NCBI GenBank assembly: GCA_902363125.1
Contig: CABIZD010000008.1
Location: 27,402-91,401, forward strand
Direction of reading: 5' to 3'
Length of the DNA stretch: 64,000 nucleotides
Origin: Coriobacteriaceae bacterium
GTDB taxonomy: Bacteria; Actinomycetota; Coriobacteriia; Coriobacteriales; Coriobacteriaceae
In this document: positions 8,421 through 33,976 of the stretch, piece by piece
Position numbering within the stretch: position 1 is the first letter of the stretch
Layout: every line of letters begins with the position of its first letter
The notes under the pieces: generated by a model
Databases searched by the model: none
What the model was told of the DNA's origin: nothing
What the model saw: only the letters and a program-made list of their open reading frames with translations
Program-made: the position numbers and the translations under genes

Positions 8421-8502
8421 GATTGGGATATAACTAGGGTGTCGATTCGCAGCGCCGCCCGCGCGGTGTGCGGGTCGGATGTGCGTGGAAGCACAGATGA
8501 GT

Positions 8503-8546: not shown

Positions 8547-8566
8547 TACGTTTAATTCAATAGGGG

Positions 8567-8776
8567 ATGATGTCCGTGGTCAGCCGAGAGTACATCGCGC
8601 GATCCGCCCGCCACCACGACACAGTCATGGCGTGGGCGTTCCGCCGCGCCCTGGGGGTCACGGCGGCGCCTCGCCGCCGACCAGGGGGTGCCGGGGGCGT
8701 GCGCCTGGAGGCGCTGCGCTACGGGGGCATCGAGGCGTGCATGTCCAACCGAGGGCGCTCCCCGGTGGAGTGGTAG
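8567..8776 (+). CDS. Hypothetical small phage protein (69 aa)
   Basis: ATGATG start (8567/8570) preceded by AGGGG. Basic, Arg-rich (SREYIARSARHHDTVMAWAF...), ending 3 bases before the HNH gene. Spacing and RBS are acceptable but there is no recognised domain. Confidence 0.4.
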   Translation: MMSVVSREYIARSARHHDTVMAWAFRRALGVTAAPRRRPGGAGGVRLEALRYGGIEACMSNRGRSPVEW

Positions 8777-9336: not shown

Positions 9337-10353
9337 GTGTACGTGAAGATACACGATATCGTCCCATATGAGCGAAACGCCCGGCACAACGCCTCCGCCG
9401 TCCCCGTGGTCGCCGACTCCATCAAGGAGTTCGGGCTGCGCGGGACCATCGGCCTGGAGAGCCGCGAGCGCCCGGTTATTGTATGGGGGCACACCCGCGT
9501 CGAGGCGTGCAGGAGCCTGGGGTGGGACGAGATTCCCGACTCCAAGATCGAGTATTGCGACGACCTGACCGACGAGCAGATCAAGGCCTTCCGCATCGCC
9601 GACAACAAGACCGGCGAGGTGGCAACCTGGAACAAGTCGATGCTGCGCGAGGAGGTCCGCAGCCTCAAGGACTTCGACATGTCGAGGTTCGGGCTGGACT
9701 TCAAGAGCAAGCGGCTCGACTACGGCCACGAGCGCCTGAGGACGGACGACGCGTATAACCTGCGCCTCGTCAGCCGGTCCGACTGCGGCCGAGACGGCAT
9801 GCCCCGCATGAAGCGGTGCATGGCCAAGCCGGCGGACATGATCGGGTTCAACTACGCCAAGAGCACGCCCGAGGCCGACAAGGCCGGCCGCTGCTGCCAC
9901 TTCTTCATCGACGACTACCAGTTCGAGCGCGTGTGGGCCCGCCCCGCGGCCTACCTCGAGTGCCTGCGCGGCTTCGAGTGCGTGCTCACGCCCGACTTCT
10001 CGCTCTACCTCGACATGCCAGACGCCATGCAGCGGTGGAACCGCTACCGCTCCCAGGCGCTCGGCCACTGGTGGCAGGAGCAGGGCCTCCGTGTAGTCCC
10101 GACCCTGTCGTGGGCGCAGCGCCAGAGCTTCCGCTTCGCGTTCGACGGCGTCCCGCGCCGATCGACCGTCGCCGTGTCGACCGTCGGCGTGAAGGGGGAC
10201 GAGGGCGCCCTGGCCGTCTGGCGCGAGGGCATGGCGGAGGCCATGAGCCGCCTGGAGCCCGCGCGCGTGCTGCTCTACGGCGGCGACATAGGATTCGATT
10301 TCGGCGCCTGCGAGGTCGTCGAGTACAAGGGAGGCGGTTTCCGTGGGAGGTAG
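9337..10353 (+). CDS. ParB-like domain fused to DUF4417
   Basis: 338 residues from GTG 9337 (SD weak). Residues 1-95 are ParB/Srx-like (V-P-Y-x-x-N-A-R-H-N, then P-V-I-V-W-G-H-T-R-V-E-A, then A-D-N-K-T-G-E), as in phage ParB-methyltransferase proteins. The C-terminal 200 residues carry F-T-P/L-T-P-D-F-S-like and D-M-P-x-A-M-Q-x-W-N-x-Y-R-S segments typical of DUF4417, a domain of unknown function in phages. The combination places a DNA-binding/nicking domain beside the packaging region. The stop overlaps the next gene's start. Confidence 0.75.
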   Translation: MYVKIHDIVPYERNARHNASAVPVVADSIKEFGLRGTIGLESRERPVIVWGHTRVEACRSLGWDEIPDSKIEYCDDLTDEQIKAFRIADNKTGEVATWNKSMLREEVRSLKDFDMSRFGLDFKSKRLDYGHERLRTDDAYNLRLVSRSDCGRDGMPRMKRCMAKPADMIGFNYAKSTPEADKAGRCCHFFIDDYQFERVWARPAAYLECLRGFECVLTPDFSLYLDMPDAMQRWNRYRSQALGHWWQEQGLRVVPTLSWAQRQSFRFAFDGVPRRSTVAVSTVGVKGDEGALAVWREGMAEAMSRLEPARVLLYGGDIGFDFGACEVVEYKGGGFRGR

Positions 10354-11005
10354 GGGCTCATACTCTTACTCCGGCAAGCGCTCGGCCAAGGACGGATCGA
10401 CTCTGTCGGCCTACGCGGTCGCATCTCTGAACAGGGGCGCTGCGGGAGGAACGACGGTGGAGTCTGCCATAGACCGCTTTCGCGAGCAGCTGATGGACAA
10501 TAGGTACGAGCACTCGGCCTATATCGATGACGCGGGATATGTCCATGCGCTGGGGTCGACCGGAAAGGAAGGGTCGACCAGAGTCGCGCCGCTGTCCTCC
10601 GTCGCACATGAAAAGGGCGTCTCGACGATTATCCATAACCATCCTCATGGCGGCTCGGACGGCCGCAAATGGGGAGGCCCGCTTTCCGGCGGCGACCTGG
10701 AATACATCGCCTCGGCCTACAACATGAGCGGAGGACGCGTCAAGAGGATCGTCGCGACGTCGAACGAGGGGACCTATTCCGCGCTCGTGACGAAAAGCGT
10801 GAGCGGCAAGGCCGTCAGGTCTGCCGTAAAGCGAGCCGATGCTACGGTCAGGGGGAGGAAATATCAGAGCGAAATCGCGATGTGGAGAGCAGTGAACAAG
10901 GCCTACACCTCGGAGTTTGCTAAAATAGGCATTGAGATCAGCTATGAGAAGCAACCGAAGAAAAGCGGGCTTCTCGTTACCCAGAAGACCGGCACCTATG
11001 CGTGA
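10343..11005 (+). CDS. JAMM/JAB-motif metalloprotease-like phage protein (220 aa)
   Basis: Visible JAMM core: H98-x-H100 followed by S115-x-x-D118 (HNHPHGG...PLSGGD), the zinc-binding HxH-S-D pattern of JAB/MPN peptidases, preceded by beta strands with a Gly-Ser-Thr turn. The N-terminal 30 residues are Ser/Gly-rich; the C-terminal 70 are helical and basic. GTG start at 10343 overlaps the preceding gene. Phage JAB proteins process tail or head proteins or modify host targets; here it lies before terminase, so a packaging/host-takeover role is possible but unproven. Confidence 0.65.
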   Translation: MGGRGSYSYSGKRSAKDGSTLSAYAVASLNRGAAGGTTVESAIDRFREQLMDNRYEHSAYIDDAGYVHALGSTGKEGSTRVAPLSSVAHEKGVSTIIHNHPHGGSDGRKWGGPLSGGDLEYIASAYNMSGGRVKRIVATSNEGTYSALVTKSVSGKAVRSAVKRADATVRGRKYQSEIAMWRAVNKAYTSEFAKIGIEISYEKQPKKSGLLVTQKTGTYA

Positions 11006-11021
11006 TGGGGGTTGATGCCAG

Positions 11022-11237
11022 ATGGCATATGACGTTGACTACGATTTCGAGTTTGACGAGGATGAATTCGGCACGGCGATGATGCCCAAGGGCGTCAAGT
11101 GGCGTGGAAACCTCTGCCTGCTTCCCAACGGCAGGTACCTCCCGCCTGGAAACTACCGCACCGAAGACGGTGGCAACATCATCTACGAACCGAGCGAACT
11201 GAGCCCCTTCGCCGATATGCTCTCGCAGTTCAGATAG
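11022..11237 (+). CDS. Small acidic phage protein (71 aa)
   Basis: ATG at 11022 after a weak site. The N-terminus is extremely acidic and aromatic (DVDYDFEFDEDEFG), then a beta-rich part with L-P-N-G-R-Y-L-P-P-G-N-Y. Such DNA-mimic-like acidity can mark anti-restriction or toxin-inhibitor proteins, but there is no direct support. Followed by a strong terminator. Confidence 0.5.
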   Translation: MAYDVDYDFEFDEDEFGTAMMPKGVKWRGNLCLLPNGRYLPPGNYRTEDGGNIIYEPSELSPFADMLSQFR

Positions 11238-19771: not shown

Positions 19772-20139
19772 AGCTCGCCGACCTCGAGGAACGTCACCTG
19801 CCCCTGCTCAGGCACGACTTCAGGGCCTACTACGGCTGCTGCTACGACGAGGTCGGCGCCGCCGAGGCGTACGACCTCGTGAGGACGCTGCCGGACGGGT
19901 CGCTCACCGTGGCGGCACTCCACCCGGAGCGCAGCTGGACGCAGGAGCGGCAATCGGCGGCCGACATCGTAGACAGCGTCTACGCGGCGGCGACCGCGCT
20001 GTGCGGCGGCAAGGCATCGGAAGCCCCGAGGGTGCCCCGCCCGCGGGACGTGGCCGCCGCCGGCGCCGCGGCAGAGCGCGCGGCGTCGGTGCGCGCCCGC
20101 ATCGAGAACACCGAGTGGGCGGAGGTGACGGATGGCTGA
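19382..20139 (+). CDS. Tail assembly chaperone, -1 frameshift form (gpGT-like)
   Basis: After slippage at 19759-19765 the -1 frame is open from 19765 to the TGA at 20137-20139, adding 124 residues (LLELADLEERHLPLLRHDFR..., ...AYDLVRTLPDGS...). The fusion of about 252 residues matches the gpGT arrangement of siphoviruses. The extension has no start codon or ribosome binding site near its beginning, and ends overlapping the tape measure start, which supports frameshifting over a separate gene. Confidence 0.85.
19759..19765 (+). promoter_or_regulatory. Programmed -1 ribosomal frameshift site
   Basis: A AAA AAC spans 19759-19765 in the frame X XXY YYZ of the chaperone gene, six bases before its stop (TAG 19769-19771 begins four bases after). 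This heptamer is among the most efficient bacterial -1 slippery sequences. Confidence 0.88.
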
Positions 20140-23100
20140 GATCGGACGCGCGGACCTGCTGATCGTCCCCAGGTTCGACAACCTCACCAAGTCGGTCGAG
20201 TCCGCGCTCGGCAAGTGCGAGGGGCAGGCGAGCAAGTCCGGCTCAAGCCTCGGCAAGAGCACCGGCTCCGGGTTCGGGAAGGGGCTGGCCGGCTCCGGCG
20301 CGATGATAGGCGCCTTCTCGACGCTCACGTCGAAGGCCATGGACTCCATCTCGTCCCATGTCGGGTCGGCGATCAGCCGCTTCGACACGCTCAACAACTA
20401 CCCGAAGGTCATGCAGTCCCTCGGGTACTCCGCCGATTCCGCCAACGCGTCTATCGGCAAGATGTCCGACCGCCTGTCGACCCTTCCCACCAGGCTCGAC
20501 GACATGGTCTCGGTCGTCCAGGGCATCACCGCCACGGTCGGCGACCTCGACAAGGCCACCGACGTCGGCCTCGCGCTCAACGACATGCTCATCGCCTCGG
20601 GCAGCTCGACCCAGCTGTGCTCGGCGGCGATGGAGCAGTTCCGCCAGATCCTCTCCAAGGGCAAGCCCGAGATGGAGGACTGGCGCTCGCTGACGACGGC
20701 CGCGCCGGGCCAGATGGACCAGCTCGCGAAATCCATGCTCGGACCCACGGCAAACGCCAACGACCTGTACGCCGCGCTCGGCGGCGGGGGCAAGGACCCG
20801 ACCATCACGCTCGACCAGCTCATGGACAAGATGGTCGAGCTCGACACACAGGGCGGCGCGAGCTTCGCGTCCTTCAAGGACCAGGCCGAGACCGCCGCCG
20901 GCGGCGTCCAGACGAGCGTCCAGAACATGTCGAACGCCGTCACGAAGGGCGTCACCGGCACGCTCGAGTCGATCGGCAGGAACAACATCGCCGGGGTGCT
21001 CAATGACGCGAAGGGCGCCGTGAACGGCTTCTTCAAGGTCGTCAACGGCGGAGTCTCCGCGTCGATGCCCCTGGTCAAGCAACTCTACGGCGGGTTCAAG
21101 GGCCTGGCGCCCGAGATCGTCTCGGGTGCGGCAGGCATCGCGGCATGGCAGAAGGCGGTGCCCGTCCTCTCCGGCGTCGCGAGCGGCGTGGGCAAGGCCA
21201 CCGAGGCCTTCAAGCTCGCCCGCGGGGGCGCAGGCACGTTCGCCGAGTCGCTCGAGGCGGTGGGCATCGGCTTCAACCCGGTCGCGATCGGCTGCACCGT
21301 CGCGGCCGCCGGCATCGGCATACTCATCGAGAAGCAGGTCGAGTGGCAGGCCCGCACCGACGCGCTCAACAAGGCCACGACCGGCCTGGTCGACGCGGCC
21401 TCTAACACCGTGGCGCTCGAGTCCTACGCCGGCAGGGTCGAGAACGTGGGCAAGAAGTCCTCTTTCTCGGCGATGTCCGTCGACGAGCTCGCCGAGTCGA
21501 TCGGCAAGCACGTCGACGCCATGAACGAGAACACGAGGGCCGCCGAGTCGCAGATCGCGCAGCTCAACACCGCGCAGCAGATCATCGACAACTACGCCGG
21601 CAAGACCGACCTGTCCACCGACGCCCAGGGCAGGCTCACGTGGGCGCTGCAGCTGCTCAACGATCAGCTCGGGCTCAACATCTCGGCGCAGGACGTGGCG
21701 AACGGGCAGTACGTCGACGCGGACGGCAACGTCAAGAACCTCAAGCAGTCCATCGACGAGCTCGTCGCCTCCAAGAAGAAGGACGCCGAGGTGAGCGCCC
21801 TCACAGCAAACCTCACCGAGGCGTACCAGGCGCAGTCCGAGGCGGCCGACACGCTCGCCTCCAAGACGAAGCCCTACCAGGACCGCCTCAAGGAGCTGGC
21901 GAGGAGCTACCCGGAGCTCACCAAGGGCGAGCTCGAGGCGCTCGCCTGCACCGAGAAGGTCGGCAGGGAGTACAACGAGGCGAAGAAGCAGTTCGACTCC
22001 GCCTCGGAGAGCATCGACGCGCTCAACGGCAAGCTCGGCGACGCGAGCCTGACCACGCAGGAGGCCGGCAGCACCTTCGAGCACTTCGCCCAGGCGCAGC
22101 TCACGCTCTTCCAGGCACAGCTCTCGGCCAACGGCGAGACCCTGTCCGCCATCTCCGGCTCGCTCACGCAGCTCGGCGTCGACACCGAGCAGCTGGCGAG
22201 CCTCAGCGACGACCAGCTCGCCAGGCTGGCGCAGGACTACGACGGCACCGCCCGCTCCATCGTCGACGACCTCGACGGGTGGGGCGTCTCGATGGACGAG
22301 GGCGCCGCCTCGACGGTCCGCGCGGCGAGCCAGATCCAGGCCGCGCTCGAGGACATGGGCGGCAAGCTCAAGAAGGCGTTCTCGAAGGAGAACATCGACT
22401 TCGGCGCGTTCTCGGACGCCTGCGCCGCGGCCGGCGTGTCGACCGAGACGCTCAACAGCATCGGCTCCGCCAACCTCGCCGCGCTCGCCAGCAACTTCAA
22501 CGGCAACATCGACCAGATGGTCTGGGCCGTCCAGAACTACAACGCGCAGCCCATCGTCGACAAGAACGGCAACGTGACCGTCGACCAGGCCCAGCTCATG
22601 GACGCCCAGGGCAACGTGTACACCTGGAACGGCTCGCAGCTGATGGACAAGAGCGGCGTCGTCGACGTGAGCGTCGGCGACCTGCGCGACGCCCAGGGCA
22701 ACCTCGTGACCTGGAACGGCACGGCGCTCCAGTCCAAGAGCGCCAAGACAAAGGTCGACAAGAAGGAAGTCGACAAGGCGCAGACCTCGGTGGACAAGCT
22801 CAACGGCACCAAGCTCAAGAGCAAGGAGATGACCGCCAAGGCGAGCTACGGGACGCTGCCGAAGTGCCAGTCCGCCATGCAGGCGGTGATGAACGAGCCG
22901 TTCCACTCAAGGTCGGCGACGATCACCACGACCTACGTGACCGTCAACAGGACACGCAACGAGAAGGCCGCCGGCGGCATACGCCATGCCGAGGGGGGCA
23001 TCCGCATGCACGCGCACGGCGCCATCGTCGACGCGCCGGTGACCGGCTACCCGCTCGACTGGGTGGGCGAGGACGGCGCCGAGGCCATCGTGCCGCTCAC

Positions 23101-23290
23101 GAACCGCAGGTATTCCGAGCCGTTCGCGGCGACCCTCGCCGAGCAGATGGCGCGGCTCGGCGGCCAGCGCGGCGACGTCTACAACATCTACCTCGACGGG
23201 TCGGCCCTCGAGGTCGACGAGCGCGTCGCGGAGGCGCTCAGGGCGCTGGTCTCCGAACTCAAGAGGACCGTCAGGACCGGAAGGGGGTAG
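20132..23290 (+). CDS. Tape measure protein
   Basis: 1052 residues; the ATG overlaps the frameshift product. Features: N-terminal Gly-rich region with G-L-A-G-S-G-A-M-I-G, a tape-measure domain with S-A-A-M-E-Q-F-R-Q-I-L-S-K-G and Q-M-D-Q-L-A-K-S-M-L-G (about 165-205), hydrophobic segments near 330-400, long coiled coils, and a C-terminal G-G-I-R-H-A-E-G-G-I-R...E-D-G-A-E-A-I-V-P-L-T block. Its length sets tail length. No lytic transglycosylase or peptidase domain is evident. Confidence 0.93.
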   Translation: MAEIGRADLLIVPRFDNLTKSVESALGKCEGQASKSGSSLGKSTGSGFGKGLAGSGAMIGAFSTLTSKAMDSISSHVGSAISRFDTLNNYPKVMQSLGYSADSANASIGKMSDRLSTLPTRLDDMVSVVQGITATVGDLDKATDVGLALNDMLIASGSSTQLCSAAMEQFRQILSKGKPEMEDWRSLTTAAPGQMDQLAKSMLGPTANANDLYAALGGGGKDPTITLDQLMDKMVELDTQGGASFASFKDQAETAAGGVQTSVQNMSNAVTKGVTGTLESIGRNNIAGVLNDAKGAVNGFFKVVNGGVSASMPLVKQLYGGFKGLAPEIVSGAAGIAAWQKAVPVLSGVASGVGKATEAFKLARGGAGTFAESLEAVGIGFNPVAIGCTVAAAGIGILIEKQVEWQARTDALNKATTGLVDAASNTVALESYAGRVENVGKKSSFSAMSVDELAESIGKHVDAMNENTRAAESQIAQLNTAQQIIDNYAGKTDLSTDAQGRLTWALQLLNDQLGLNISAQDVANGQYVDADGNVKNLKQSIDELVASKKKDAEVSALTANLTEAYQAQSEAADTLASKTKPYQDRLKELARSYPELTKGELEALACTEKVGREYNEAKKQFDSASESIDALNGKLGDASLTTQEAGSTFEHFAQAQLTLFQAQLSANGETLSAISGSLTQLGVDTEQLASLSDDQLARLAQDYDGTARSIVDDLDGWGVSMDEGAASTVRAASQIQAALEDMGGKLKKAFSKENIDFGAFSDACAAAGVSTETLNSIGSANLAALASNFNGNIDQMVWAVQNYNAQPIVDKNGNVTVDQAQLMDAQGNVYTWNGSQLMDKSGVVDVSVGDLRDAQGNLVTWNGTALQSKSAKTKVDKKEVDKAQTSVDKLNGTKLKSKEMTAKASYGTLPKCQSAMQAVMNEPFHSRSATITTTYVTVNRTRNEKAAGGIRHAEGGIRMHAHGAIVDAPVTGYPLDWVGEDGAEAIVPLTNRRYSEPFAATLAEQMARLGGQRGDVYNIYLDGSALEVDERVAEALRALVSELKRTVRTGRG

Positions 23291-23293
23291 CAG

Positions 23294-25621
23294 GTGGCCT
23301 ACAAGGAGCTGAGCAGGAACAAAGTCAAGTACTACTCGATCAGCCTCTCCACATCGGTCTCCAACGTCGACGACACCACGGCCCGCATACACTGGACCGC
23401 CACCGTCGACTTCGGCAACTGGTACTACTACGGCGTGCGCCTCCACGTCAAGGTCGGCGGCGTCTGGCGAGCGAGCGGCGACGGCTACACGACCTCCCCC
23501 TACGCATGCGCCGTCACCGTCAGCGGCTATACCGACGCGGCGCGCGCGGACAAGGACTACGACGTCTGGGTCGAGGCCTATACCGAGTCCGTGTCGGTGT
23601 GCGGCTACGGCGCCGTCGGCGCGACGACCTCCTGCGGCGAGGGCGCCAGGATCGGCAAGGTCCCGGCATACGAGCCCGCCGCCCCGACCGACCTCAGGGT
23701 CACGCGCTCGACCGACGACGTCACCGACCTCGAGTGGGCCAACCACCCGGACGACGACGCCAGGAAGTACTACGACGGCATCAACGTGTACCGCCACACC
23801 AACGGCGGACCGACCGAGAACCCGTACAACTCAGGCACGATCTCCAACTGGCGCGACGCCACGACGACGGCGAACAACTACTACGACTACGACGTCCGAG
23901 CGCGCTGGCGCGGAGGAACGTCGGACATGTCGAACTCGGTGCGCGTCTACAAGACGCCAGCGCCGCCGGCATCGGTCTCGCTATCGCGCTCCGGCGACGG
24001 CGAGGTCTCGCTGGTCGTCAGGGGTCCCGATATCCCGTCCTGGATCAGCGGCTTCGATGTCCGCGCGACCTCCGACGGCGGCAGGACCTACAAGCCCCGC
24101 GCCCTTACCGCCGACAGACAGGAGCCGGGCGTCTGGACCATGACCGACCCGTCTGCCGTGGCGGGAGAGAAGGTCGTCTACGAGGTCCGCACCTACCGCG
24201 AGGAGCCCGTGGCGGGCGCGGGGGACACCGTCTTCTCCGCGTGGACGGCATCCAACGCAGTGGCGACGATCTGCCCGCCGTACGCGCCCGCCGTCTCCGG
24301 GGTCGACCCCGCCTACCCGACTGGGTCGACGGCGACCATCGGCTGGACGCGGAACCACCCCGACGGGACAGCCCAGACGGCGGCGCAGATTGAGCTGGTC
24401 GGGCCCGATGGCAAGACCGTCCCGCACCACATCACCGGGTCCGCGTCGACGACATCCCTGAGCCTGTCCGCGAAGGGCACCTACCGGCTACGCGTCCGCA
24501 CCAAGGGCGCCGACCCCTCATGGGGAGCGTGGTCGGAGTACGCGGTGTTCAGGGTCGCCGACCCGCCGCAGGCGTTCTTCACGACCCCCGCGGAGGACGG
24601 CGAGGCCGTCGTCGAGCTCCCGCTGCGCGCCGCCTGGACCGCTGTCGACGAGACCGGCATCACCTACCAGCGCCTGAGGCTGCTGCGCGGCGGCTCCGCG
24701 GTCATCGACACATCGGTCGCCGCGGGCGCGCGGTCGCACGAGATCGCCTCCGGCCTGGAGAACAGGTCCGCGTACGTCCTCGAGCTCACCGTCCGCGGCG
24801 GCTCGAGCCTGTCCACGACCGTCACCCGCTCGTTCTCGACCGACTGGCTCGTGCCCGCCACGCCCATCATCAACGTCTCCTACAGCGACGCGCTCGCAGC
24901 CGTCGTCACGGTGCGCGACGGCATCTCGGAGTTCTCCGTAAGGGACCACAAGCTGCGCGGCCCCATGGCCATGACGCCCGAGGGCAACATCCGCATCAGG
25001 GGCGGCATGTCCATAAAGGGGACGCGCGCAACCGTCCACAGCCTCCCGCCGTGCGCCTCGTTCGATATCGAGCGCGTGCTCGCGGACGGCTCGAGGCTCC
25101 TGCTCGCGAGCGGCCTCAAGTCCGGGCAGAGCGTCATCGACCGCCTGCCGCCGCTCAACGTCGGGTTCTCCTACGTCGCGCGCGGCTACGCGGCCTCCGG
25201 AACCACCTCGACGACCGAGGTGGGGACCGTGTGCCCGTGCGACGGGTTCGCCCTCAACTTCGGGCCGGACGCCTCCGAGGTCGTCGTGGGCGACAGGAAC
25301 ATGGGCGGCCCGCCGCAGTACTCGGCGAGCCCCGAGCGCGAGCGCGACCAGTTCCACTTCGTCGGCGGCGGCCTGCCCATGGGGTTCGAGAGCGGCAACC
25401 TCTCGATGAAGGAGTCGATGGAGTTCACGATCGAGGAGGACGACTACCTGCGCGTCCGCGGCCTGTTCGGCCGCTACGGAAGCGCCTGGGTGCGACCCCA
25501 TCTGGGCGACCGCGGCTTCGCCGCCGTCACGGGGACGCTCACCAGGTGCGCGCCTGAGGACTACAGGGTGTCCGTATCGACGAAGAGGGAGCGATGGAGG
25601 GAGCCCAACGGTGTCGGATGA
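23294..25621 (+). CDS. Tail tip protein with fibronectin-type III-like repeats (775 aa)
   Basis: GTG 23294 follows the tape measure stop by three bases. After a beta N-terminal domain there are several repeats of about 90 residues with the FnIII pattern (P-A-A-P-T-D-L-R-V-T..., P-P-A-S-V-S-L-S..., Y-A-P-A-V-S-G-V-D...), each with Tyr/Val-rich strands, then a C-terminal domain with cysteine pairs (V-C-P-C-D-G-F). Gene order suggests the distal tail/fibre adhesion protein; FnIII modules often bind cell-surface glycans. Confidence 0.7.
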   Translation: MAYKELSRNKVKYYSISLSTSVSNVDDTTARIHWTATVDFGNWYYYGVRLHVKVGGVWRASGDGYTTSPYACAVTVSGYTDAARADKDYDVWVEAYTESVSVCGYGAVGATTSCGEGARIGKVPAYEPAAPTDLRVTRSTDDVTDLEWANHPDDDARKYYDGINVYRHTNGGPTENPYNSGTISNWRDATTTANNYYDYDVRARWRGGTSDMSNSVRVYKTPAPPASVSLSRSGDGEVSLVVRGPDIPSWISGFDVRATSDGGRTYKPRALTADRQEPGVWTMTDPSAVAGEKVVYEVRTYREEPVAGAGDTVFSAWTASNAVATICPPYAPAVSGVDPAYPTGSTATIGWTRNHPDGTAQTAAQIELVGPDGKTVPHHITGSASTTSLSLSAKGTYRLRVRTKGADPSWGAWSEYAVFRVADPPQAFFTTPAEDGEAVVELPLRAAWTAVDETGITYQRLRLLRGGSAVIDTSVAAGARSHEIASGLENRSAYVLELTVRGGSSLSTTVTRSFSTDWLVPATPIINVSYSDALAAVVTVRDGISEFSVRDHKLRGPMAMTPEGNIRIRGGMSIKGTRATVHSLPPCASFDIERVLADGSRLLLASGLKSGQSVIDRLPPLNVGFSYVARGYAASGTTSTTEVGTVCPCDGFALNFGPDASEVVVGDRNMGGPPQYSASPERERDQFHFVGGGLPMGFESGNLSMKESMEFTIEEDDYLRVRGLFGRYGSAWVRPHLGDRGFAAVTGTLTRCAPEDYRVSVSTKRERWREPNGVG

Positions 25622-27185
25622 TATCTGGCTCGCGTCGTTCAGGACCTCCTACCGGTACGCCCGCGTTTCGCGGTCGACCGGCCTGGAGACCGGCGCCATC
25701 GAGTGCTTCACCGGCGGGAGCATCAGCCGCAACCAGGACACGGACACCTATGAGTCCGCATCGCTGGACTACGTCGGCAGGCTCGACATGGGCAACGACT
25801 TCGTGCGCATCTACCTCGACGCGGAGGACCCGATCTCGGGCGCGTCGCGCACCGTGTGCCTGGGGACCTTCGAGTGCTCGACGCCGTCCCGCACGGTGAG
25901 CGGCGAGGTGGCGACCGGCATCGCGACGCTCTACGGCAGACTCCACGACCTCGCGAAGGACGACTTCGACGAGCCGTACACCGTGCCGGCCGGCGCAAAC
26001 GCGGTCTCCGCGGCCAAGGCGATCGCGGAGGGGTGCGGGCTCGAGGTGGTCGCGGAGCCGAGCGACTACACGCTGTCGACGGCATGGGTCTTCGGGATCG
26101 CCGCCACGGCGGACACGCCGGACAACAAGCTGGGCGCGGTCAATAGGCTGCTCTCCGCTGCAGGATTCAGGAGCGCGTCGACCGACACCTACGGGCGCGT
26201 GCTGTTCAGGCGTTACCTGGAACCGGCGGCGAGGCCGATCGACCACACCTTCTCAGAGGGCGAGGACTGCCGGGTGCTTCCCGACCTCACCGACGAGCAG
26301 GACGACTTCGACGCGGTGAACGTGGTGCACGTCGACTTCGCTACCCAGGGCGAGAGCGTCAGGGGAACGGCCTCGGACGACAGCCCGCAGAGCGAGTGGT
26401 CGACCGTCTCCACGGGCCGCCGCATCGTGAAGCGGTACCAGTACAGCGACCTCCCGTCAGGGGAGAGCGTCATCGCCGGCGGCTCCTACCCGCTCGCCGG
26501 AGACGGCACCCACGACAGCGCGACCTTCAGGTGCAGCGGCGGCGGGGGGGCCATCGAGACCGTCGGCGTTTCCGGGTGCCCGATCGGCGGCATCAGCCAG
26601 GCGATCCGCATCACGAAGGGGCCCGGCTCCGGTGAGATCGGCATCGCCCAGGACAAGATATTCCTCAAGAAGGGCCAGCCGTACACCGAGTCCGTTTACC
26701 TCTACGCGTCGCAGAGGGTGCAGGTGAGGGTCCAGCCAATCTGGCGCGAGGACGACGGGGGAGAGACCGCGACGGTCGCCATCGGGCCAGGCTGGACGAG
26801 GCTGTCGCTCACGGCCACCCCGGCCAAGTCCGAGGAATACAGCGCGGGCTACATCTACCTTGCCGCTAGCGCGCCGACCGGATCGTACATCGACGTAGCG
26901 CAGGTCAAGGTCGAGGAGGGCGTTGTGGCAACGCAGTTCGCGGTCGAGGCTGCGAACGAGAAGGCGGCGAGCCTGCTCGCCACCGAGTGCTCGGTCATCC
27001 GCCGCCCGATCATCACGGCGATCTTCAACCCGTCGGCGGACGTCTACTCGGCGTGCGCCATCAGGCTGCCGTCTGTCGGGATCGAGCTCGCCCGCGCCTG
27101 CATCCGGAAGATGGACCTCGAGCTCTCGATGGGATGCCCCATGAGGATCGAGCTCCGCATGTACATGAGGGGTGATGCCTCGTGA
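25611..27185 (+). CDS. Tail-associated (baseplate hub-like) protein with carbohydrate-binding-like insert
   Basis: 524 residues from GTG 25611. The N-terminal 280 residues look like the hub-type fold (C-F-T-G-G-S-I-S-R-N-x-D-T-D-T-Y-E-S, later G-L-E-V-V-A-E and Y-G-R-V-L-F-R-R-Y), the middle (about 290-440) resembles a CBM-type beta sandwich (A-I-R-I-T-K-G-P-G, Y-T-E-S-V-Y-L-Y-A-S, W-T-R-L-S-L-T-A-T) and the tail contains helices. It overlaps both neighbours, and likely forms part of the tail tip that contacts the host wall. Confidence 0.65.
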   Translation: MSDDIWLASFRTSYRYARVSRSTGLETGAIECFTGGSISRNQDTDTYESASLDYVGRLDMGNDFVRIYLDAEDPISGASRTVCLGTFECSTPSRTVSGEVATGIATLYGRLHDLAKDDFDEPYTVPAGANAVSAAKAIAEGCGLEVVAEPSDYTLSTAWVFGIAATADTPDNKLGAVNRLLSAAGFRSASTDTYGRVLFRRYLEPAARPIDHTFSEGEDCRVLPDLTDEQDDFDAVNVVHVDFATQGESVRGTASDDSPQSEWSTVSTGRRIVKRYQYSDLPSGESVIAGGSYPLAGDGTHDSATFRCSGGGGAIETVGVSGCPIGGISQAIRITKGPGSGEIGIAQDKIFLKKGQPYTESVYLYASQRVQVRVQPIWREDDGGETATVAIGPGWTRLSLTATPAKSEEYSAGYIYLAASAPTGSYIDVAQVKVEEGVVATQFAVEAANEKAASLLATECSVIRRPIITAIFNPSADVYSACAIRLPSVGIELARACIRKMDLELSMGCPMRIELRMYMRGDAS

Positions 27186-27464: not shown

Positions 27465-28103
27465 ATGGCCAACAACAGCGACGGGTCCGCCGTCTACGAG
27501 GTGAAGGTCGGGGAGGACGACTATATCGACGGCCTCGACGTGACGGAGAGCGACGGTAGCATCACCACCTACCTGTTCCGCCCGGCAAACTACGACGAAG
27601 TCGAGGCGGCGCGAAAGAGGGCCGAGAGCGCCGCGTTGCTGGCGCGCAGCGCCGCAGGCACCGCAAAGACTCAGGCATATGACGCCAACGTCGCCGCCGG
27701 AGCTGCCAGAACGGCCTCCGCGGAGTGCTCGACTGCCACCGAGAACGCCAACGCCGCCGTTCAGAAGGCGAATGCCGCGAACGATACCGCAAGCGCCTCG
27801 ACTGCGCTGGCGAGCAATGCGGCCGCCGCGGCCAACGGCGCGGCGTCTCATGCCGAGGCCGCCGCGAACCAGGCGCTGCAGATCGCGAACTCGGTGGCGC
27901 AGGGCGCCGGCGGCGAATCCGATATCGCGGAGCTGCGCCGTCAGAACGGCCAGCTCGCGACGATGCTCGCCGACGCGACGGGGAAGTTCATCTACATGGA
28001 CGGGACCGTCTACTGCCCGGCATCCAAGGCGTCGGTGTCCGGCGACACGGTGTCGTTCGGCGGCACGTGCTCGGTCTCGGGCAGCACGGTAACCCTTGCC
28101 TAA
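27465..28103 (+). CDS. Tail fibre-like coiled-coil protein (212 aa)
   Basis: N-terminal 45 residues form a small beta domain (Y-E-V-K-V-G-E-D-D-Y-I-D-G); residues about 45-140 are a long Ala-rich coiled coil with many Asn/Ala heptad-like repeats; the end is beta (V-S-G-D-T-V-S-F-G-G-T). Such trimeric shafts carry tip proteins. It stands directly before the DGR target gene with an overlap-free AAGGAGG, so it may anchor the diversified tip. Confidence 0.65.
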   Translation: MANNSDGSAVYEVKVGEDDYIDGLDVTESDGSITTYLFRPANYDEVEAARKRAESAALLARSAAGTAKTQAYDANVAAGAARTASAECSTATENANAAVQKANAANDTASASTALASNAAAAANGAASHAEAAANQALQIANSVAQGAGGESDIAELRRQNGQLATMLADATGKFIYMDGTVYCPASKASVSGDTVSFGGTCSVSGSTVTLA

Positions 28104-28112: not shown

Positions 28113-29021
28113 ATGGCAAATGCAAAGACACTGGTCGTCGGCGGCCAGTCGCTCAACGTCATCGACGATACCGCGCGCAGCAACGCGCAGACGGCGCTCA
28201 ACAACGCCGAGTACAACCGCCAGGGCCAAATCGGCAAGTACGGCGGGCAGAACATCGCCACCATCCTGGCGGGAGAGATCGGCAGCGGCAGCGTGTACGA
28301 CGCGCTGCACAAGCGAGCGGCGGTCGGCAACTTCGCGGGCCTTCGCGTCGGGGACTACATCGACGTGCCCCTCGTGAGCGCATCCGCCGTCGCGGCCCAG
28401 CAGTCCGTGCGCTTCCTGCTGGCCCACATCGACCCGTATCTTTATTGCGGCGACAACAGCAAGGGCCACCACATCGCGTTCGTGGCGTCCGCCCCAGTGG
28501 CCGTGGCAAAAACAGTGACAGGCGTGGCAAACGACAGCTTCCTGATGTGGAACACCACCAACACGAACCAGGGCACCGCCGACCAGAAATGCCCCTACCT
28601 CAACAGCAACCTCAAGGCGTGGGAGACGGCCTTCGAGGCCTGCCTGCCCGAGGGGCTGACCAAGTACCTGCTTACCCAGCGCGTCCTGCTGGAGGAACGT
28701 TACAGCGCAAGCGGCGCGCTCAACGACTCCAACTCGTGGAGCTGGCAGGATATCGGCAAGGTGTTCTCGCTGTCCGAGATGGAGGTGTACGGATGCCCGG
28801 TGTGGGGAACCAAGGGCTACAGCGTGGGCTTCGACTGCCAGTTCGACCTGTTCCGCGACACGGCGCACCGTCTCAACGGAAATCGGTACACTTGGTGGCT
28901 GCGTTCCGTCATGGGTGGCTCGTCGTCCGGCGTGTGCTGCGTCTACCTCTACGGCTGTGCCAACTACACCTCCCCGACGTCCGTCTGGGTTCGCCCCCGC
29001 CCCGGCTTCCTCGTCGGCTAG
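28113..29021 (+). CDS. DGR target protein, C-type-lectin-like variable tail protein
   Basis: 302 residues, perfect AAGGAGG four bases before the ATG. The N-terminal half is a phage-type domain (G-L-R-V-G-D-Y-I-D-V-P, V-R-F-L-L-A-H-I-D-P, with the N-T-T-N-T-N-Q-G run). The C-terminal half has the S-W-S-W-Q-D-I-G-K-V-F-S-L-S-E-M-E-V-Y-G, W-W-L-R-S and V-R-P-R-P-G-F pattern of DUF6273/formylglycine-type C-type-lectin folds. Residues 257-299 are the VR. Variable positions (Gly, Cys, Tyr, Leu, Tyr, Cys, Thr, Pro, Ser relative to TR Asn/Tyr/Thr codons) lie in the exposed loops between the conserved W-W-L-R-S and W-V-R-P. Likely the phage receptor-binding protein. Confidence 0.9.
   Translation: MANAKTLVVGGQSLNVIDDTARSNAQTALNNAEYNRQGQIGKYGGQNIATILAGEIGSGSVYDALHKRAAVGNFAGLRVGDYIDVPLVSASAVAAQQSVRFLLAHIDPYLYCGDNSKGHHIAFVASAPVAVAKTVTGVANDSFLMWNTTNTNQGTADQKCPYLNSNLKAWETAFEACLPEGLTKYLLTQRVLLEERYSASGALNDSNSWSWQDIGKVFSLSEMEVYGCPVWGTKGYSVGFDCQFDLFRDTAHRLNGNRYTWWLRSVMGGSSSGVCCVYLYGCANYTSPTSVWVRPRPGFLVG
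28882..29010 (+). repeat. DGR variable repeat (VR)
   Basis: 129 bases aligned without gaps to TR 29620-29748. Substitutions are at TR adenine positions 10, 48, 49, 58, 63, 66, 67, 69, 75, 76, 88, 93, 99, 100 and 125 only; all other bases are identical. The 3' end is GC-rich (from CGTCTGGG to CCCCGG), the likely initiation of mutagenic homing. Confidence 0.96.
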
Positions 29022-29029
29022 CCAGCCGA
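29014..29029 (+). promoter_or_regulatory. Hairpin just after VR (retrotransfer element candidate)
   Basis: TCGGCT (29014-29019) and AGCCGA (29024-29029) form a 6-bp stem with a 4-base loop, three bases after the VR ends, and contain the target stop codon. In the BPP-1 DGR a hairpin/cruciform of similar size and spacing stimulates retargeting. Confidence 0.7.
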
Positions 29030-29050
29030 GTGCTCTATACTCTGCTTTTA

Positions 29051-29101
29051 GGCGACCGCCTTGCGCGGTCGCCTCCTGCCCGCGAAGCGGGCCGGTTTTT
29101 T
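29051..29101 (+). terminator. Double hairpin with T-run between target and avd
   Basis: First stem GGCGACCGC (29051-29059) with GCGGTCGCC (29065-29073), second stem GCCCGC (29078-29083) with GCGGGC (29087-29092), then CGG and T6 (29096-29101). Acts as a terminator for the target gene; the first hairpin could also form a cruciform. Confidence 0.75.
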
Positions 29102-29125
29102 CGCCAGTTTCCCCAGGAGGTGCAC

Positions 29126-29596
29126 GTGAGCGGCGTCTACCAGCGCAACCGCGAGGTGTCCGAATACAAGTTCTTCACGCAGGCCATCGCCATCCGCGTG
29201 GAGGTCAACAAGCTGATGGCCTCGTCGTCCGTGGTGCCGAAGGCCTACCGGCTGCTCAACGCCGTGCCAACGGTGGAGACGGCGCGCAGCATCGTGTACA
29301 ACGTCAACCGCGCCGACAGCTTCTACCCCAACAGCTCGTTCAACGCATTGGAGCGCAAGCGGTACCTGACGCTGGCGATAGCCGACTGCGAGCAGCTGAT
29401 GCTGGACATGCAGTGCCTCATGGATATCGGCCTGCCCGTGAACGCCAACCGCTTCGAGGCACTGGCCAACATGGTCGATGAGGAGATCAAGCTGCTCAAG
29501 GGCGCGCGCAAGAACGTGCGCGTCACCGGCAAGAAATCGACCGAGGAGCGCATAGCGGAGGCCGAGGCCGAGCTAGAGCGCCTTCGTTCGCTATAA
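29126..29596 (+). CDS. avd: DGR accessory variability determinant (Avd-like)
   Basis: 156 residues from GTG 29126, AGGAGG 6 bases before. Four long helices are visible: Y-K-F-F-T-Q-A-I-A-I-R-V-E-V, R-S-I-V-Y-N-V-N-R-A, L-T-L-A-I-A-D-C-E-Q-L-M-L-D-M-Q and M-V-D-E-E-I-K-L-L-K-G-A-R-K. This is the four-helix-bundle layout of Avd/23S-rRNA-intervening-sequence proteins, somewhat longer than the 128-residue BPP-1 Avd because of a Lys/Glu tail. Avd forms a pentamer binding RT and the TR RNA, and is needed for cDNA priming. Lying between target and TR fits. Confidence 0.85.
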   Translation: MSGVYQRNREVSEYKFFTQAIAIRVEVNKLMASSSVVPKAYRLLNAVPTVETARSIVYNVNRADSFYPNSSFNALERKRYLTLAIADCEQLMLDMQCLMDIGLPVNANRFEALANMVDEEIKLLKGARKNVRVTGKKSTEERIAEAEAELERLRSL

Positions 29597-29619
29597 TGGG
29601 TGGCGGTCCCGCCTTGTAT

Positions 29620-29748
29620 ATCGGTACAATTGGTGGCTGCGTTCCGTCATGGGTGGCTCGTCGTCCAACGTGTGCTACGTCAACAACAACGGCAATGCCA
29701 ACTACAACTCCACGACGAACGTCTGGGTTCGCCCCCGCCCCGGATTCC
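29620..29748 (+). repeat. DGR template repeat (TR)
   Basis: Non-coding copy rich in AAC/AAT triplets aligned to VR codons, so that A-to-N changes give Asn/Tyr/Thr codons a wide range of amino acids (for example AAC-AAC-AAC becomes TAC-CTC-TAC in the VR). Adenines outside mutable codons are few. It lies 23 bases after the avd stop. The ORF running through it in another frame is not considered a gene. Confidence 0.96.
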
Positions 29749-29960
29749 CTTATTGCCAGACCGAGTAGGCCCCAGAGCCGAAAGCAGAGCGCGAAGAGGA
29801 AGGAAGGCGCGACCGTCGGGCATGCGCCCGTAAATACGCACCCCGCGAGGGTGGCCGGACGCTGCTTGCATGGCGCGGCGCTCCGTGGCTTCGCCGCGTT
29901 TCATGGCCATACCTCAAGCGGCTGCCAGAGCCACACTGAGAGCCGTGCGGGGTGCCTTCG
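29749..29960 (+). ncRNA. TR 3' spacer RNA of the DGR
   Basis: 212 bases without a supported gene separate the TR from the RT start. In BPP-1 the about 140-base spacer downstream of TR is the RNA segment bound by RT-Avd and holds the cDNA priming site; this stretch occupies that place. It is GC-rich with several GGGC/GCCC-type hairpin partners. Assigned by position, not by sequence identity. Confidence 0.6.
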
Positions 29961-31178
29961 ATGAACTCCGAGGAAAGAAGGGCCGCGCGCCGCAAGCGCC
30001 GCGAGGAGAGGCGCGCCAAGGCCAAGGCCGAGCGCGTGAAGCCGTGCACCCTTGAGGCCGTGGCCGACCTCAACAGCCTTTGCAAGGCCTCCAAGCAGGC
30101 GGCGGGCGGCGTGATGTGGAAGTCCTCCACGCAGCGTTATATGAAGGACTATCTGCGAAACGCGGTCAAATCGAGGAACGACCTTCTGGAGGGCCGCGAC
30201 ATATGCCGGGGCTTCATCCGCTACGACCTGTGGGAGCGCGGCAAGCTGCGCCACATCAGCGCCGTGCACTTCCCAGAGCGAGTGATTCAGAAGTCGCTTT
30301 CTCAGAACGCCCTCGTACCCGCGATAGTCCCGACACTCATAACGGCCAACTCCGCCAACATCAAGGGGCGCGGCACCGACTACGCCCTGAAGCTGCTCAA
30401 GCGCCACCTGGCCGACCACTGGCGGCGGCACAGGCGCGAGGGATACATCCTTTTGGGCGACTTCTCAGATTACTTCGCCCGCATAGCCCACGAACCCGTC
30501 AAGCGGCAGGTGGCCGGCGCACTGCTCGATCCGCGCGTGGTCGCCCTCGAGCACCGCCTGATAGACGCACAGGGCGAGGTGGGCCTGGGTCTGGGCAGCG
30601 AGCCGAACCAGATATGCGCGGTGGCCCACCCCAACCGCATCGACCACTACGTGACCGAGATGCTGCGCCCCGAGGCCTACGGGCGCTATATGGACGACTT
30701 CTACCTGATCCACGAGAGCAAGGAGTACCTGCAGGTGTGCCTGCTGCTGATAGGGCGCAAGTGCGCCGAGCTGGGCATAGAGCTGAACCCGCGCAAGACC
30801 CGCGTGGTGAAGCTGTCGCGCGGCTTCACGTGGCTGAAGAAGCGCATCTTCTACACGGAGACGGGCCGCATAGTCGTGAAGCCGTGCCGCGACTCCATCA
30901 CGCGCGAGCGCCGCAAGCTGAAGAAGATGGCCCGCATGGTCGCCGATGGCGTCATGACCCCCGAGCAGGTTGAGCGGAGCTACCAGAGCTGGCGCGGCGG
31001 CATGAAGCGGCTGGACGCGCACCGCAGCGTTTTGGCCATGGACGCGCTGTACCGCAGCCTGTTCGAAAATCTCGCGCGGGAGGGGGGGGTGCTCAATGCA
31101 GGCCAACCCGAGGGACGATTCAAGCGGAGGCAAGCCCTCGCAATAGCGGAGAACCGGCAACTCAAAGCAGCGGCCTAA
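29961..31178 (+). CDS. DGR reverse transcriptase
   Basis: 405 residues from ATG 29961 (GTG 29952 is possible, adding three residues; GGGG 29949-29952 supports 29961). Very basic N-terminus (MNSEERRAARRKRREERRAK). RT motifs: R-G-T-D-Y-A-L-K-L-L-K (motif 2 region), D167 in L-G-D-F-S-D-Y-F (motif A), G-L-G-L-G-S-E-P-N-Q (208-217, motif B), Y243-M-D-D (motif C) and F-T-W-L-K-K-R-I-F (motif E). The C-terminus is helical with a thumb-like R-E-R-R-K-L-K-K-M-A-R-M. It copies TR RNA into mutagenised cDNA. Followed by a terminator. Confidence 0.93.
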   Translation: MNSEERRAARRKRREERRAKAKAERVKPCTLEAVADLNSLCKASKQAAGGVMWKSSTQRYMKDYLRNAVKSRNDLLEGRDICRGFIRYDLWERGKLRHISAVHFPERVIQKSLSQNALVPAIVPTLITANSANIKGRGTDYALKLLKRHLADHWRRHRREGYILLGDFSDYFARIAHEPVKRQVAGALLDPRVVALEHRLIDAQGEVGLGLGSEPNQICAVAHPNRIDHYVTEMLRPEAYGRYMDDFYLIHESKEYLQVCLLLIGRKCAELGIELNPRKTRVVKLSRGFTWLKKRIFYTETGRIVVKPCRDSITRERRKLKKMARMVADGVMTPEQVERSYQSWRGGMKRLDAHRSVLAMDALYRSLFENLAREGGVLNAGQPEGRFKRRQALAIAENRQLKAAA

Positions 31179-32148: not shown

Positions 32149-32424
32149 ATGAAAATCAACTGGGCCCTTCGCTTCAAGAATAAGCAGACGCTCGCGGCAT
32201 TGGCCGCCACCGTAATCAGCGCAGCCTATCAGGTGCTCGGAATCCTCGGAGTCGTGGCGCCTATCTCCCAGGGGTCGCTCATCCAGCTCGTCGGAATCAT
32301 CCTGACCGTTCTCGCCGGCTTCGGCGTGATCGTCGATCCGACCACCAAGGGCGCGTCGGACTCGAAGCGTGCCATGTCGTACAGCGAGCCCCATGCCGCA
32401 TATGACGCCAAGGCGGTTGAGTAG
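32149..32424 (+). CDS. Phage holin, phi-LC3-type
   Basis: 91 residues. I-N-W-A-L-R-F-K-N-K-Q-T-L start, two transmembrane helices (about 15-35 and 45-63) and the V-D-P-T-T-K-G-x-S-D-S-x-R-A-M-x-Y ending that marks phi-LC3-family holins. It opens the membrane to let endolysin act. AGGAGCTG lies before the ATG. Confidence 0.88.
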   Translation: MKINWALRFKNKQTLAALAATVISAAYQVLGILGVVAPISQGSLIQLVGIILTVLAGFGVIVDPTTKGASDSKRAMSYSEPHAAYDAKAVE

Positions 32425-32427: not shown

Positions 32428-33381
32428 ATGGCCATCACACAGCGCGAGGCCTTCGCGCAGGTCATGGAACACCTCGTCTCCCATGATGGGGGCGGCGGTC
32501 ACGGATACTCGCAGGCCAACCGCATGGGGGACGGAACGACCGAGACGATTTGTCTGTCCGACGGCACCACCGTCACTATTGCCGGTGGCGATCGCGACTG
32601 TTCCTCGGCCGTAGTGACCGCCCTCCGCGCGGTCGGCGTCAATACCTTCGGAGCCTCGTATACCGGAAACATGCGGGAGCAGCTGCTCAAGACGGGCCTT
32701 TTCGGCTGGCGTAAGATGGGCGTCAAGTCCGCCCAGCGTGGAGACATCTACCTCAACGAGAAGTGCCACACCGCCGTGTGCGTCTCTCCCTATGGATCAG
32801 CTCGCGGCGACCTCTTGGCCCAATTCTCCATTTCTGAAAAGGGGACCGTCACCGGCACCAAGGGCGACCAGACCGGGCGCGAGTCCAACATCAAGGCGTA
32901 CTACAGCTACCCATGGGACGGCACGCTCTACTGGCTTGGCGACGGCAAGACACTGAATGGGTCAAATACGGAAGTCGCGGACAATACGGTCCCGAGCCTC
33001 GGAGACACGCGATATTTCGGCCCGAAGATGGCCAAGGAGCTGCAACGCCAGCTCGGCACGACTGCCGATGGCGTGATCTCCGGTCAATGGCCGGCGAATG
33101 AGCGATACCTTTGGGCATGCGACCGCGGCGTAATCGAGTACGTCAAGGGCGGGGTTGGCTCGAATGCCGTCCGCGCCCTGCAGGACAAGGTCGGATGCAA
33201 AGTCTATCCCGTGGTCGGCGGTGTTCAGGCGCGACAGATGGGTTCGGGAACGGTCTTCAAACACCAGCAGTGGCTTATCGCTCAAGGTATCTCGTGCGGA
33301 TCATCGGGTGCGGACGGATACCAGGGCCGCGACACCAACGTCGCCATCGGCCAAGCGCTCGTCAAGCAACTCTATCGATAG
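32428..33381 (+). CDS. Endolysin, peptidoglycan amidase/endopeptidase (NlpC/P60-like)
   Basis: 317 residues, three bases after the holin. N-terminal catalytic domain with D-R-D-C-S-S (C58) and C-H-T-A-V (H114), G-D-I-Y-L-N strand, as in phage Amidase_5/NlpC-P60 peptidases. The C-terminal half (about 190-317) looks like two wall-binding repeats (Y-F-G-P-K-M-A-K-E-L-Q-R-Q-L-G-T-T-A-D-G-V-I-S-G-Q-W and the later D-G-Y-Q-G-R-D-T-N-V-A-I-G-Q-A-L). Lyses the host at the end of the cycle. Confidence 0.85.
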   Translation: MAITQREAFAQVMEHLVSHDGGGGHGYSQANRMGDGTTETICLSDGTTVTIAGGDRDCSSAVVTALRAVGVNTFGASYTGNMREQLLKTGLFGWRKMGVKSAQRGDIYLNEKCHTAVCVSPYGSARGDLLAQFSISEKGTVTGTKGDQTGRESNIKAYYSYPWDGTLYWLGDGKTLNGSNTEVADNTVPSLGDTRYFGPKMAKELQRQLGTTADGVISGQWPANERYLWACDRGVIEYVKGGVGSNAVRALQDKVGCKVYPVVGGVQARQMGSGTVFKHQQWLIAQGISCGSSGADGYQGRDTNVAIGQALVKQLYR

Positions 33382-33666: not shown

Positions 33667-33710
33667 GACTCTTAATCCCAAGGTCCAGGGTTCGACCCCC
33701 TGACGGCCCA
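33667..33710 (+). other. tRNA-Lys 3' fragment, phage attachment site (attR)
   Basis: GACTCTTAATC is the tRNA-Lys(CTT) anticodon arm, followed by the T-arm GGTTCGACCCC and the acceptor 3' strand ACGGCCC plus discriminator A (33710). The 5' half and complementary acceptor strand GGGCCGT are absent upstream, so this is a partial tRNA created by integration. A Rho-independent terminator follows at 33725-33754. Confidence 0.85.
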
Positions 33711-33798
33711 CCCAAAGATCGTTAAAGCGACTGGCTCAGGCTGGTCGCTTTTTTGTTGACCTTTCATGGGGTCGAACCCGAAAGGGCGCGGAGCTGAG
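33694..33798 (+). repeat. Direct repeat, copy 1 (105 bp, includes tRNA end and terminator)
   Basis: Pairs with 33872-33976, offset 178, with only five mismatches. Includes the tRNA-Lys 3' end (from 33694), a terminator stem (33725-33754, AAGCGAC with GTCGCTT) and a GGGGTCGAACCC motif. Confidence 0.9.
33725..33754 (+). terminator. tRNA-Lys terminator, copy 1
   Basis: Stem AAGCGAC/GTCGCTT plus two G-T pairs and GGC-type inner pairs, then a T-run. Copy 2 has the same structure at about 33903-33932, with a C to T change in the 3' arm. Confidence 0.7.
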
Positions 33799-33871
33799 GA
33801 AATGCGTAAGCATTTACCAGCGCAGCGCGCAAGGCGCCTTGGCGCCGCAGCGGCCGCCTGCGCAGCAGGCT

Positions 33872-33976
33872 GACCCCCTGACGGCCCACCCAAAGATCGT
33901 TAAAGCGACTGGCTTAGGCTGGTCGTTTTTTTGTTAACCTCGCATGGGGTCGAACCCGAAAGGGCGCGGAGCTGAG
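33872..33976 (+). repeat. Direct repeat, copy 2 (105 bp)
   Basis: Second copy of 33694-33798 with five base changes. It carries a tRNA-Lys 3' end but not the anticodon arm. It may mark a second attachment event or a remnant attB; the 73 bases between copies have GC-rich palindromes. Confidence 0.9.

Follow-up and report, generated by a model that had tools for sequence, protein, structure and literature searches.

The DNA considered here (the window) is a stretch of 64,000 nucleotides (nt) from a Coriobacteriaceae bacterium, positions 27,402 to 91,401 of the forward strand of contig CABIZD010000008.1 (assembly GCA_902363125.1). It carries a prophage locus in which a DUF6273 target gene containing a variable repeat (VR) is followed by a stem-loop, an avd gene, a template repeat (TR), a structured RNA and a reverse transcriptase (RT) gene, in that order:

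28113..29021, plus strand: target gene, 302 amino acids (aa), with DUF6273 at residues 157-295 (Pfam, 27.4 bits, cut-off 23.5)
28882..29010, plus strand: VR, an ungapped match to TR
28983..29010, plus strand: putative initiation of mutagenic homing site (IMH), the GC-rich undiversified 3' end of VR, its function assigned by analogy with phage BPP-1; C29006 is a fixed difference from TR A29744
29050..29074, plus strand: putative target stem-loop, a perfect inverted repeat of 10 base pairs (bp) with the loop CTTGC, 39 nt past VR
29078..29101, plus strand: second hairpin with a T-run, likely the terminator of the target gene, read from the sequence by eye
29126..29596, plus strand: avd gene, 156 aa, predicted helical bundle, GTG start with GGAG upstream
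29620..29748, plus strand: TR, with 26 adenines
29751..29975, plus strand: Rfam RF03077 RT-2 RNA (138.2 bits, gathering cut-off 40), a full-length match to model positions 1-222 that overlaps the RT start
29961..31178, plus strand: RT gene with a YMDD motif (RVT_1; phrog_1423), alternative GTG start at 29952

This locus is almost certainly a complete diversity-generating retroelement (DGR) of a phage, in which RT is predicted to copy the TR transcript with errors at adenines and the complementary DNA (cDNA) to replace VR of the DUF6273 target, likely altering the face with which a predicted tail protein binds its ligand. The initial annotation of this DNA had proposed a complete DGR in canonical order in a Coriobacteriia prophage, which is borne out: the target with VR, avd, TR and RT lie in this order within a tail and lysis module. 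Its further proposal, that the target is the receptor-binding protein and that the phage switches host surface specificity, stays a hypothesis. It had overlooked the RT-2 RNA between TR and RT, the stem-loop 3' of VR and the fixed difference at the 3' end of the repeats.

The two repeats, separated by 738 bp, align over 129 columns without a gap, and the counts originally given for them were reproduced exactly: 15 of the 26 TR adenines are changed in VR (6 to C, 5 to T and 4 to G) and none of the 103 other bases is. A random placement of 15 mismatches over the 129 sites would put every one of them on one of the 26 TR adenines with a probability of 5e-13. The window gave no sign of a second VR, the best other ungapped matches to TR reaching 61/129 on the plus strand and 58/129 on the minus strand. 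One of the 15 changes stands apart from the others. The difference between TR A29744 and VR C29006 is the same in all seven of the Collinsella aerofaciens-type loci described below, and a difference of this type is found in 11 of 13 aligned Coriobacteriia-type loci, L002 and L086 having a C there in TR. Since it is fixed in all seven loci, it is better read as a difference between IMH and its counterpart in TR, IMH*, than as a diversified site, and the number of truly diversified sites is therefore 14 of 25. By analogy with BPP-1, the 3' end of VR looks like an IMH and that of TR like a differing IMH*. In the VR frame, the adenine-bearing codons of TR are AAC, AAT, TAC, ACG and ATG, with GGA as a further one at the fixed site, a set from which no stop codon can arise; the 24 adenines lying in codons 258-297 would give about 1e14 possible protein variants, none of them with a stop.

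Related loci (designated by L numbers) were collected by an RT search, which provided the best 80 of 155 viral loci and 74 genome loci, 154 in all. TR/VR pairs were called by a script that tolerates at most one non-adenine mismatch per 45 bases and requires at least four adenine mismatches; such a pair lies beside RT in 122 of the 154 loci, in addition to the window. The nearest named relative of the RT belongs to a C. aerofaciens locus, L081 (99%), which suggests a Collinsella-type host for the window element, and seven C. aerofaciens-type loci (the window, L081/L174, L082/L161, L083/L156, L084, L085/L157 and L160) were compared with one another. Within these loci, TR and VR differ at 80 of 172 adenines versus 3 of 731 other bases; seven of the 80 differences are the fixed 29744 site, and without that site the count is 73 of 165. 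The restriction of polymorphism to TR-adenine positions that the initial annotation had expected of related prophages was thus observed, other bases do not change at an equal rate, and the target, stem-loop, avd, TR, RNA and RT are conserved together in the relatives. TR itself varies between the seven strains in 22 columns, of which 14 have no adenine, and at 12 of these 14 the VR carries the TR base of its own strain in all seven loci. This tracking of strain-specific TR bases by VR is the outcome expected of repeated copying from TR to VR.

A few of these loci have peculiarities of their own. The TR of L157/L085 has bases other than adenine at 29694, 29706, 29718 and 29719 (window numbering), where the other strains have A, and its own VR shares the substituted base in each of these columns, possibly reflecting a slow loss of adenines from the template. 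In L166, read as the reverse complement, TR lies near 1380-1500 and VR near 835-960, and both RT-2 and RT are present; this TR and VR also differ at non-adenine bases, and VR has adenines that are missing from TR, so that the template has possibly decayed or been self-edited. L082 contains two DGRs in one C. aerofaciens contig, facing each other about 5.5 kb apart, with RTs at 10001-11134 (plus strand) and 17826-16666 (minus strand) that are 91% and 57% identical to the window RT, respectively. The TR of L107 (9733-9837) seems to serve two VRs, one 3' of it on the same strand and another on the opposite strand (5422-5525 of the reverse complement). Finally, the DGR-bearing locus L153 contains an Rfam Gut-1 RNA (RF01706) at 6897-6971 (52.1 bits, cut-off 50).

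VR encodes the C-terminus of the target, and the natural variation of this protein was followed in its homologs. A protein search gave 830 of them; among the best 120, 12 were longer than 310 aa and were dropped, leaving 108. When these clustered database proteins were all referred to the TR of the window, the mean entropy was 2.11 bits at the 16 VR codons that contain a TR adenine, 0.19 bits at the remaining 26 VR codons and 0.31 bits at the 260 residues counted as outside, among them codon 257, which straddles the start of VR. The nine most variable of the 302 residues are exactly those specified by the nine AAC or AAT (AAY) codons of TR, and the same nine come out on top with all 120 proteins. 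At these nine positions, all 972 residues of the 108 homologs belong to the 15 that can be encoded by NNY (N, any base; Y, C or T). This natural alphabet of nine codons and 15 residues offers a clean reference point for the filtering of DGR output by selection in the gut.

Ten of the 120 homologs are 493-494 aa long (P0009, P0016, P0034, P0038, P0053, P0063, P0074, P0091, P0094 and P0106). In these, a frame change within VR or the C-rich 3' end fuses the target into Avd, the avd frame being open back to 27725 in the window. The frame changes are either real indels produced by copying or homopolymer sequencing errors.

What the target does must be judged from its family and its surroundings. 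The locus belongs to a prophage structural module, whose upstream part has matches to ParB-like nucleases, an HNH endonuclease, a terminase small subunit, a head protease, a major head protein, connectors and a major tail protein. The head genes are followed by tape measure and tail proteins, and the DGR by a holin and an endolysin:

20132..23290, plus strand: tape measure gene (Pfam TMP_3, E 1.8e-23; phrog_1686, tail length tape measure)
25611..27185, plus strand: tail protein gene (phrog_1887, tail protein, E 1.2e-14)
27465..28103, plus strand: tail-fibre-like gene directly 5' of the target; best match phrog_19280, of unknown function, and a weak match to phrog_13481, tail fiber (E 5.6e-4)
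32149..32424, plus strand: holin gene (phrog_962, holin, E 7.6e-22)
32428..33381, plus strand: endolysin gene (Pfam ELLD, E 8.5e-17)

Position and family together suggest that the target is a virion-exposed protein with a ligand on the host surface, in which case the DGR would likely allow the phage to vary its attachment. It is conceivable, though rather unlikely, that the diversified protein is a virion decoration or a mucus-binding protein instead of the receptor-binding protein, given that some DGR targets of gut phages have Ig-like (immunoglobulin-like), Hoc-like layouts (PMC11792537, in the part consulted). However, the gene sits after the tape measure, tail and weakly tail-fibre-like genes and before those for holin and endolysin, and a Pfam scan matched no Ig domain or family in the target. 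Further downstream, 33680-33925 contains a direct repeat (33694 and 33872) and what was taken for the 3' end of a tRNA, and is possibly the right edge of the prophage; ARAGORN predicted no tRNA, and no exact 16-base partner lies upstream within the window.

Turning to the enzyme and its partner, the most likely RT start is the ATG at 29961, since several homologs align from residue 4. The closest relative of RT in a PDB search is 8ub7_A (328 aa, E 7e-13), an entry whose title describes a DGR ribonucleoprotein reverse transcriptase. The predicted model of Avd (predicted local distance difference test score, pLDDT, of 82) resembles chain C of the same entry, with a template modelling score (TMt) of 0.83, a root-mean-square deviation of 2.6 and a Foldseek E of 0.63, and the PHROG family annotated as the Avd protein of DGRs, phrog_3206, matches four of the 11 members of the Avd alignment, the window protein not being among these four. 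Position and predicted fold agree in pointing to avd.

RT-2 was the only RNA above threshold in an Rfam scan of the window, in which RF03022 (Phage_DGR) was not reached. It begins three bases past the TR end, and within a few tens of bases of it in the relatives. The generality of this juxtaposition was assessed by surveys that relied on the RNA alone. Among 396 Coriobacteriia genomes, 19 contain 22 RT-2 matches, which are not all independent, L173 and L176 being near-identical. An RT homolog lies directly 3' of all 22, and a TR/VR pair accompanies 21, with the RNA starting between 2 nt before and 25 nt after the called TR end; the match without a clean pair is that of L166. In the class of a Lachnospiraceae genome, six of 391 genomes contain one match each, four of them over the cut-off, and all six have an RT and a TR/VR pair, with gaps between TR and RNA of 4, 29, 71, 0, 6 and 3 nt. 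Taken together, 27 of the 28 matches have a TR/VR pair, and in 26 the TR end is within 30 nt of the RNA.

The same phase is kept by weaker matches. An RT-2 match with an E value of 0.01 or lower was obtained in 42 of 77 viral records chosen by their RT, and 12 of these exceed the cut-off. The loci studied contain 43 such viral matches: 33 start -10 to 40 nt from the TR end, eight have no TR call, and two do not fit, one in L034, at 96 nt, and the other being a second match in L014, just 5' of a second RT. L014 itself has tandem DGR-type RTs (5001-6146 and 7591-8697) on one viral contig, with an RT-2 RNA directly before each. Finally, 38 genomes or records known to carry such RTs gave 21 matches, in 17 of them. 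Four of the 21 fall outside the RT-defined loci, and all four have a TR/VR pair 2-12 nt ahead and an RT after; one is a 156-bit match whose RT is only 30% identical. RT-2 could hence serve as a quick RNA handle for finding DGRs. In a tree of 81 picked RT sequences, those with above-cut-off RT-2 matches fill one large clade that includes the window element; L004, L006, L008, L091 and L094 are nested within it but lack such a match, and L022 and L062 lie outside with one. In an alignment of 22 RT-2 sequences, 26 of the 33 predicted pairs have one or more sequences in which both partners have changed and the pairing is preserved.

In BPP-1, the interval between TR and RT is Rfam RF03022 Phage_DGR (104.7 bits, 133 nt), and the spacer folds, recruits bRT-Avd and primes cDNA synthesis from an internal adenine (PMC12875486, in the part consulted). 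Since the same interval is occupied by Phage_DGR in BPP-1 and its spacer recruits bRT-Avd, RT-2 is best interpreted as the functional counterpart of that spacer in another DGR clade, namely the spacer part of the DGR template RNA. That it is instead an independent regulatory or small RNA near RT genes, playing no part in a working template RNA, is improbable. The Rfam type of RT-2 is 'Gene; sRNA' and its name says only RT-2, and the overlap with the RT start would suit a leader of the RT message; a mere neighbour of RT would, however, not be expected to start at the TR end in 21 of 22 Coriobacteriia matches, nor to keep that phase in distant weak matches, and the equivalent interval of BPP-1 argues in the same direction. 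No statement linking RT-2 to DGRs was found in the literature searched, which excluded the paper describing RT-2, and the main text of the Rfam 15 paper, which has RT-2 in a table of improved structures, contains neither 'DGR' nor 'retroelement'; assigning RT-2 to the DGR template RNA may be new. The link provides a structure supported by covariation for the part that, going by the BPP-1 work, recruits RT and Avd, in a clade unlike that of BPP-1.

In BPP-1, efficient homing requires a hairpin like the one found 3' of VR, and the sequence and size of its loop matter; the stem-loops described in phage DGRs have a 4-nt GRNA loop and lie 4-34 bp from VR (PMC3240598, in the part consulted). By comparison with those phage DGR stem-loops (Guo et al., 2011), the one in the window has the loop CTTGC and lies at 39 nt. 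In 25 of 29 loci, a stem of at least 8 bp lies no more than 140 nt from VR; when 870 flanks were randomised with dinucleotide frequencies preserved, 2% had one. The count probably includes one locus twice (L001 and L164), and L081, scored as a miss, carries the same hairpin with one mismatch. The loop is CTTGC or CTTGT in 16 of the 29 loci, on several different stems.

In the outer helix of RT-2, GCACCCC is paired with GGGGTGC, just 5' of the RT start. All seven pairs form in 17 of the 22 aligned sequences and the full helix is not formed in the other five in this alignment; in 15 of the 22, the GGGG strand is fully paired (7/7 pairs) and the helix has a start codon 2-6 nt beyond it. If GGGG is the ribosome-binding site of RT, folding as template RNA would block RT synthesis. 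I put forward, tentatively and as a proposal that may well prove wrong, a model in two parts stated jointly: RT-2 would be the enzyme-loading half of the template RNA across a phage DGR clade, its closing helix in Coriobacteriia burying the RT ribosome-binding site to form a switch between message and template, and the group would use a target hairpin of its own, with a CTTG[CT] pentaloop on varied stems. If this is true, one transcript chooses between being RT message and RT template, and each folded RNA shuts off the production of more enzyme.

A cycle modelled largely on BPP-1 can be drawn for the element. Avd and RT would bind the folded RT-2 part of the transcript, and an internal adenine in that part would prime cDNA synthesis at the 3' end of TR, IMH*. 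RT is predicted to copy the TR transcript with errors at adenines, and the cDNA would enter VR through IMH and the downstream stem-loop, TR being presumably spared as its 3' end differs from IMH. The replaced VR would likely change the ligand-binding face of the predicted tail protein.

Several observations weigh against the interpretation of the locus as a complete phage DGR with a predicted tail protein as target. By the criteria of the script, 32 of the 154 related loci gave no TR/VR call. The hairpin loop differs from the GRNA tetraloop described for phage DGRs. When the Avd model was searched by fold, chain C of 8ub7 came 38th, after S23-family and other bundles; the window Avd has no Pfam family match, its sole PHROG match is to a family of unknown function (E 0.0079), and its profile matched no PDB sequence at E up to 1. 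As for the target, the homolog variability compares clustered database proteins with the TR of the window, as opposed to reads from one population or the homologs' own TRs. The predicted target model is poor (pLDDT 53.6) and resembles a C-type lectin weakly, and searches with the protein matched no sequence in the PDB (E up to 1), no NCBIfam family (E 0.1) and no PHROG (E 0.01).

One could also suppose that the DGR is a non-working relic and that the VR diversity is old, kept by selection or phage recombination. L166, with its RT-2 and RT and no clean TR/VR signal, may look like such a remnant. This is very unlikely to hold for the window, where both RT and avd have uninterrupted reading frames and the RNA is a full-length match to its model; furthermore, VR tracks strain-specific changes in TR, all 972 residues at the AAY sites are NNY-encodable, and a probable Eggerthella lenta relative (70% RT identity) varied in culture (PMC8778435, in the part consulted). 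Finally, the idea that TR and VR are an ordinary duplication or a truncated gene copy that drifted apart, with RT as a bystander, fits the presence of two similar 129-bp stretches 738 bp apart but is refuted by the base-specific pattern, as drift would have to affect other bases equally and 0 of 103 differ, as well as by VR following TR at 12 of 14 strain-variable non-adenine columns and by TR/VR pairs beside RT in 122 of 154 loci.

Comparison with known systems places this complete phage DGR more precisely. It does not correspond to the tentaclins, in which an N-terminal VR-bearing C-lectin domain precedes Ig-like domains: the VR of the window is C-terminal and its target matches no Ig family. 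Like the window element, the Faecalibacterium phages Roos, Pioen, Lelie and CP11 have VR at the C-terminus of a DUF6273 domain (PMC11792537, in part), but the RTs of Roos and Pioen are about 31% identical to the window RT. The best RT match among annotated phages (53.5%) is that of Roseburia phage Shimadzu (LR596903), which has an RT-2 RNA (144.9 bits) and an annotated tail fibre, Avd and RT; its host differs, however, and baseplate J and P2-type genes occur in its tail module, none of which was seen among the window proteins scanned. BPP-1 (AY029185, L177) shares the order of target with VR, intervening gene (bbp7), TR, structured spacer and RT. The best PDB match of the window RT has the length of brt (328 aa), and Avd matches the fold of 8ub7_C. 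By contrast, the spacer of BPP-1 is Phage_DGR (133 nt) and that of the window is RT-2 (225 nt).

The closest parallel comes from the same class. A clade of E. lenta prophages carries a DGR made of mtd, a predicted avd, TR and ert, and in one of them, DSM2243phi4, substitutions at 10 VR sites were found in chemostat isolates; this was published in 2022 (PMC8778435, in part). The layout is the same as in the window and the host family differs; activity was observed there, whereas the window element is known from sequence alone. Genome G109 has a single RT match, 70% identical to the window RT, at 3064514-3065656, which is inside the published DSM2243phi4 interval (3,031,719-3,068,586), and this locus also has an RT-2 RNA (126.9 bits) and a TR/VR pair. 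It is therefore probably the DSM2243phi4 RT that is 70% identical to that of the window, the identity of G109 being deduced from these coordinates. The suggestion that the element may be undescribed is weakened by these published DGRs; for Collinsella, one literature search gave no DGR among the matches listed. Since DGRs of the same class and layout have been published for E. lenta, the window element belongs to a known kind, of which it is a well-preserved member in the prophages of a common gut genus.

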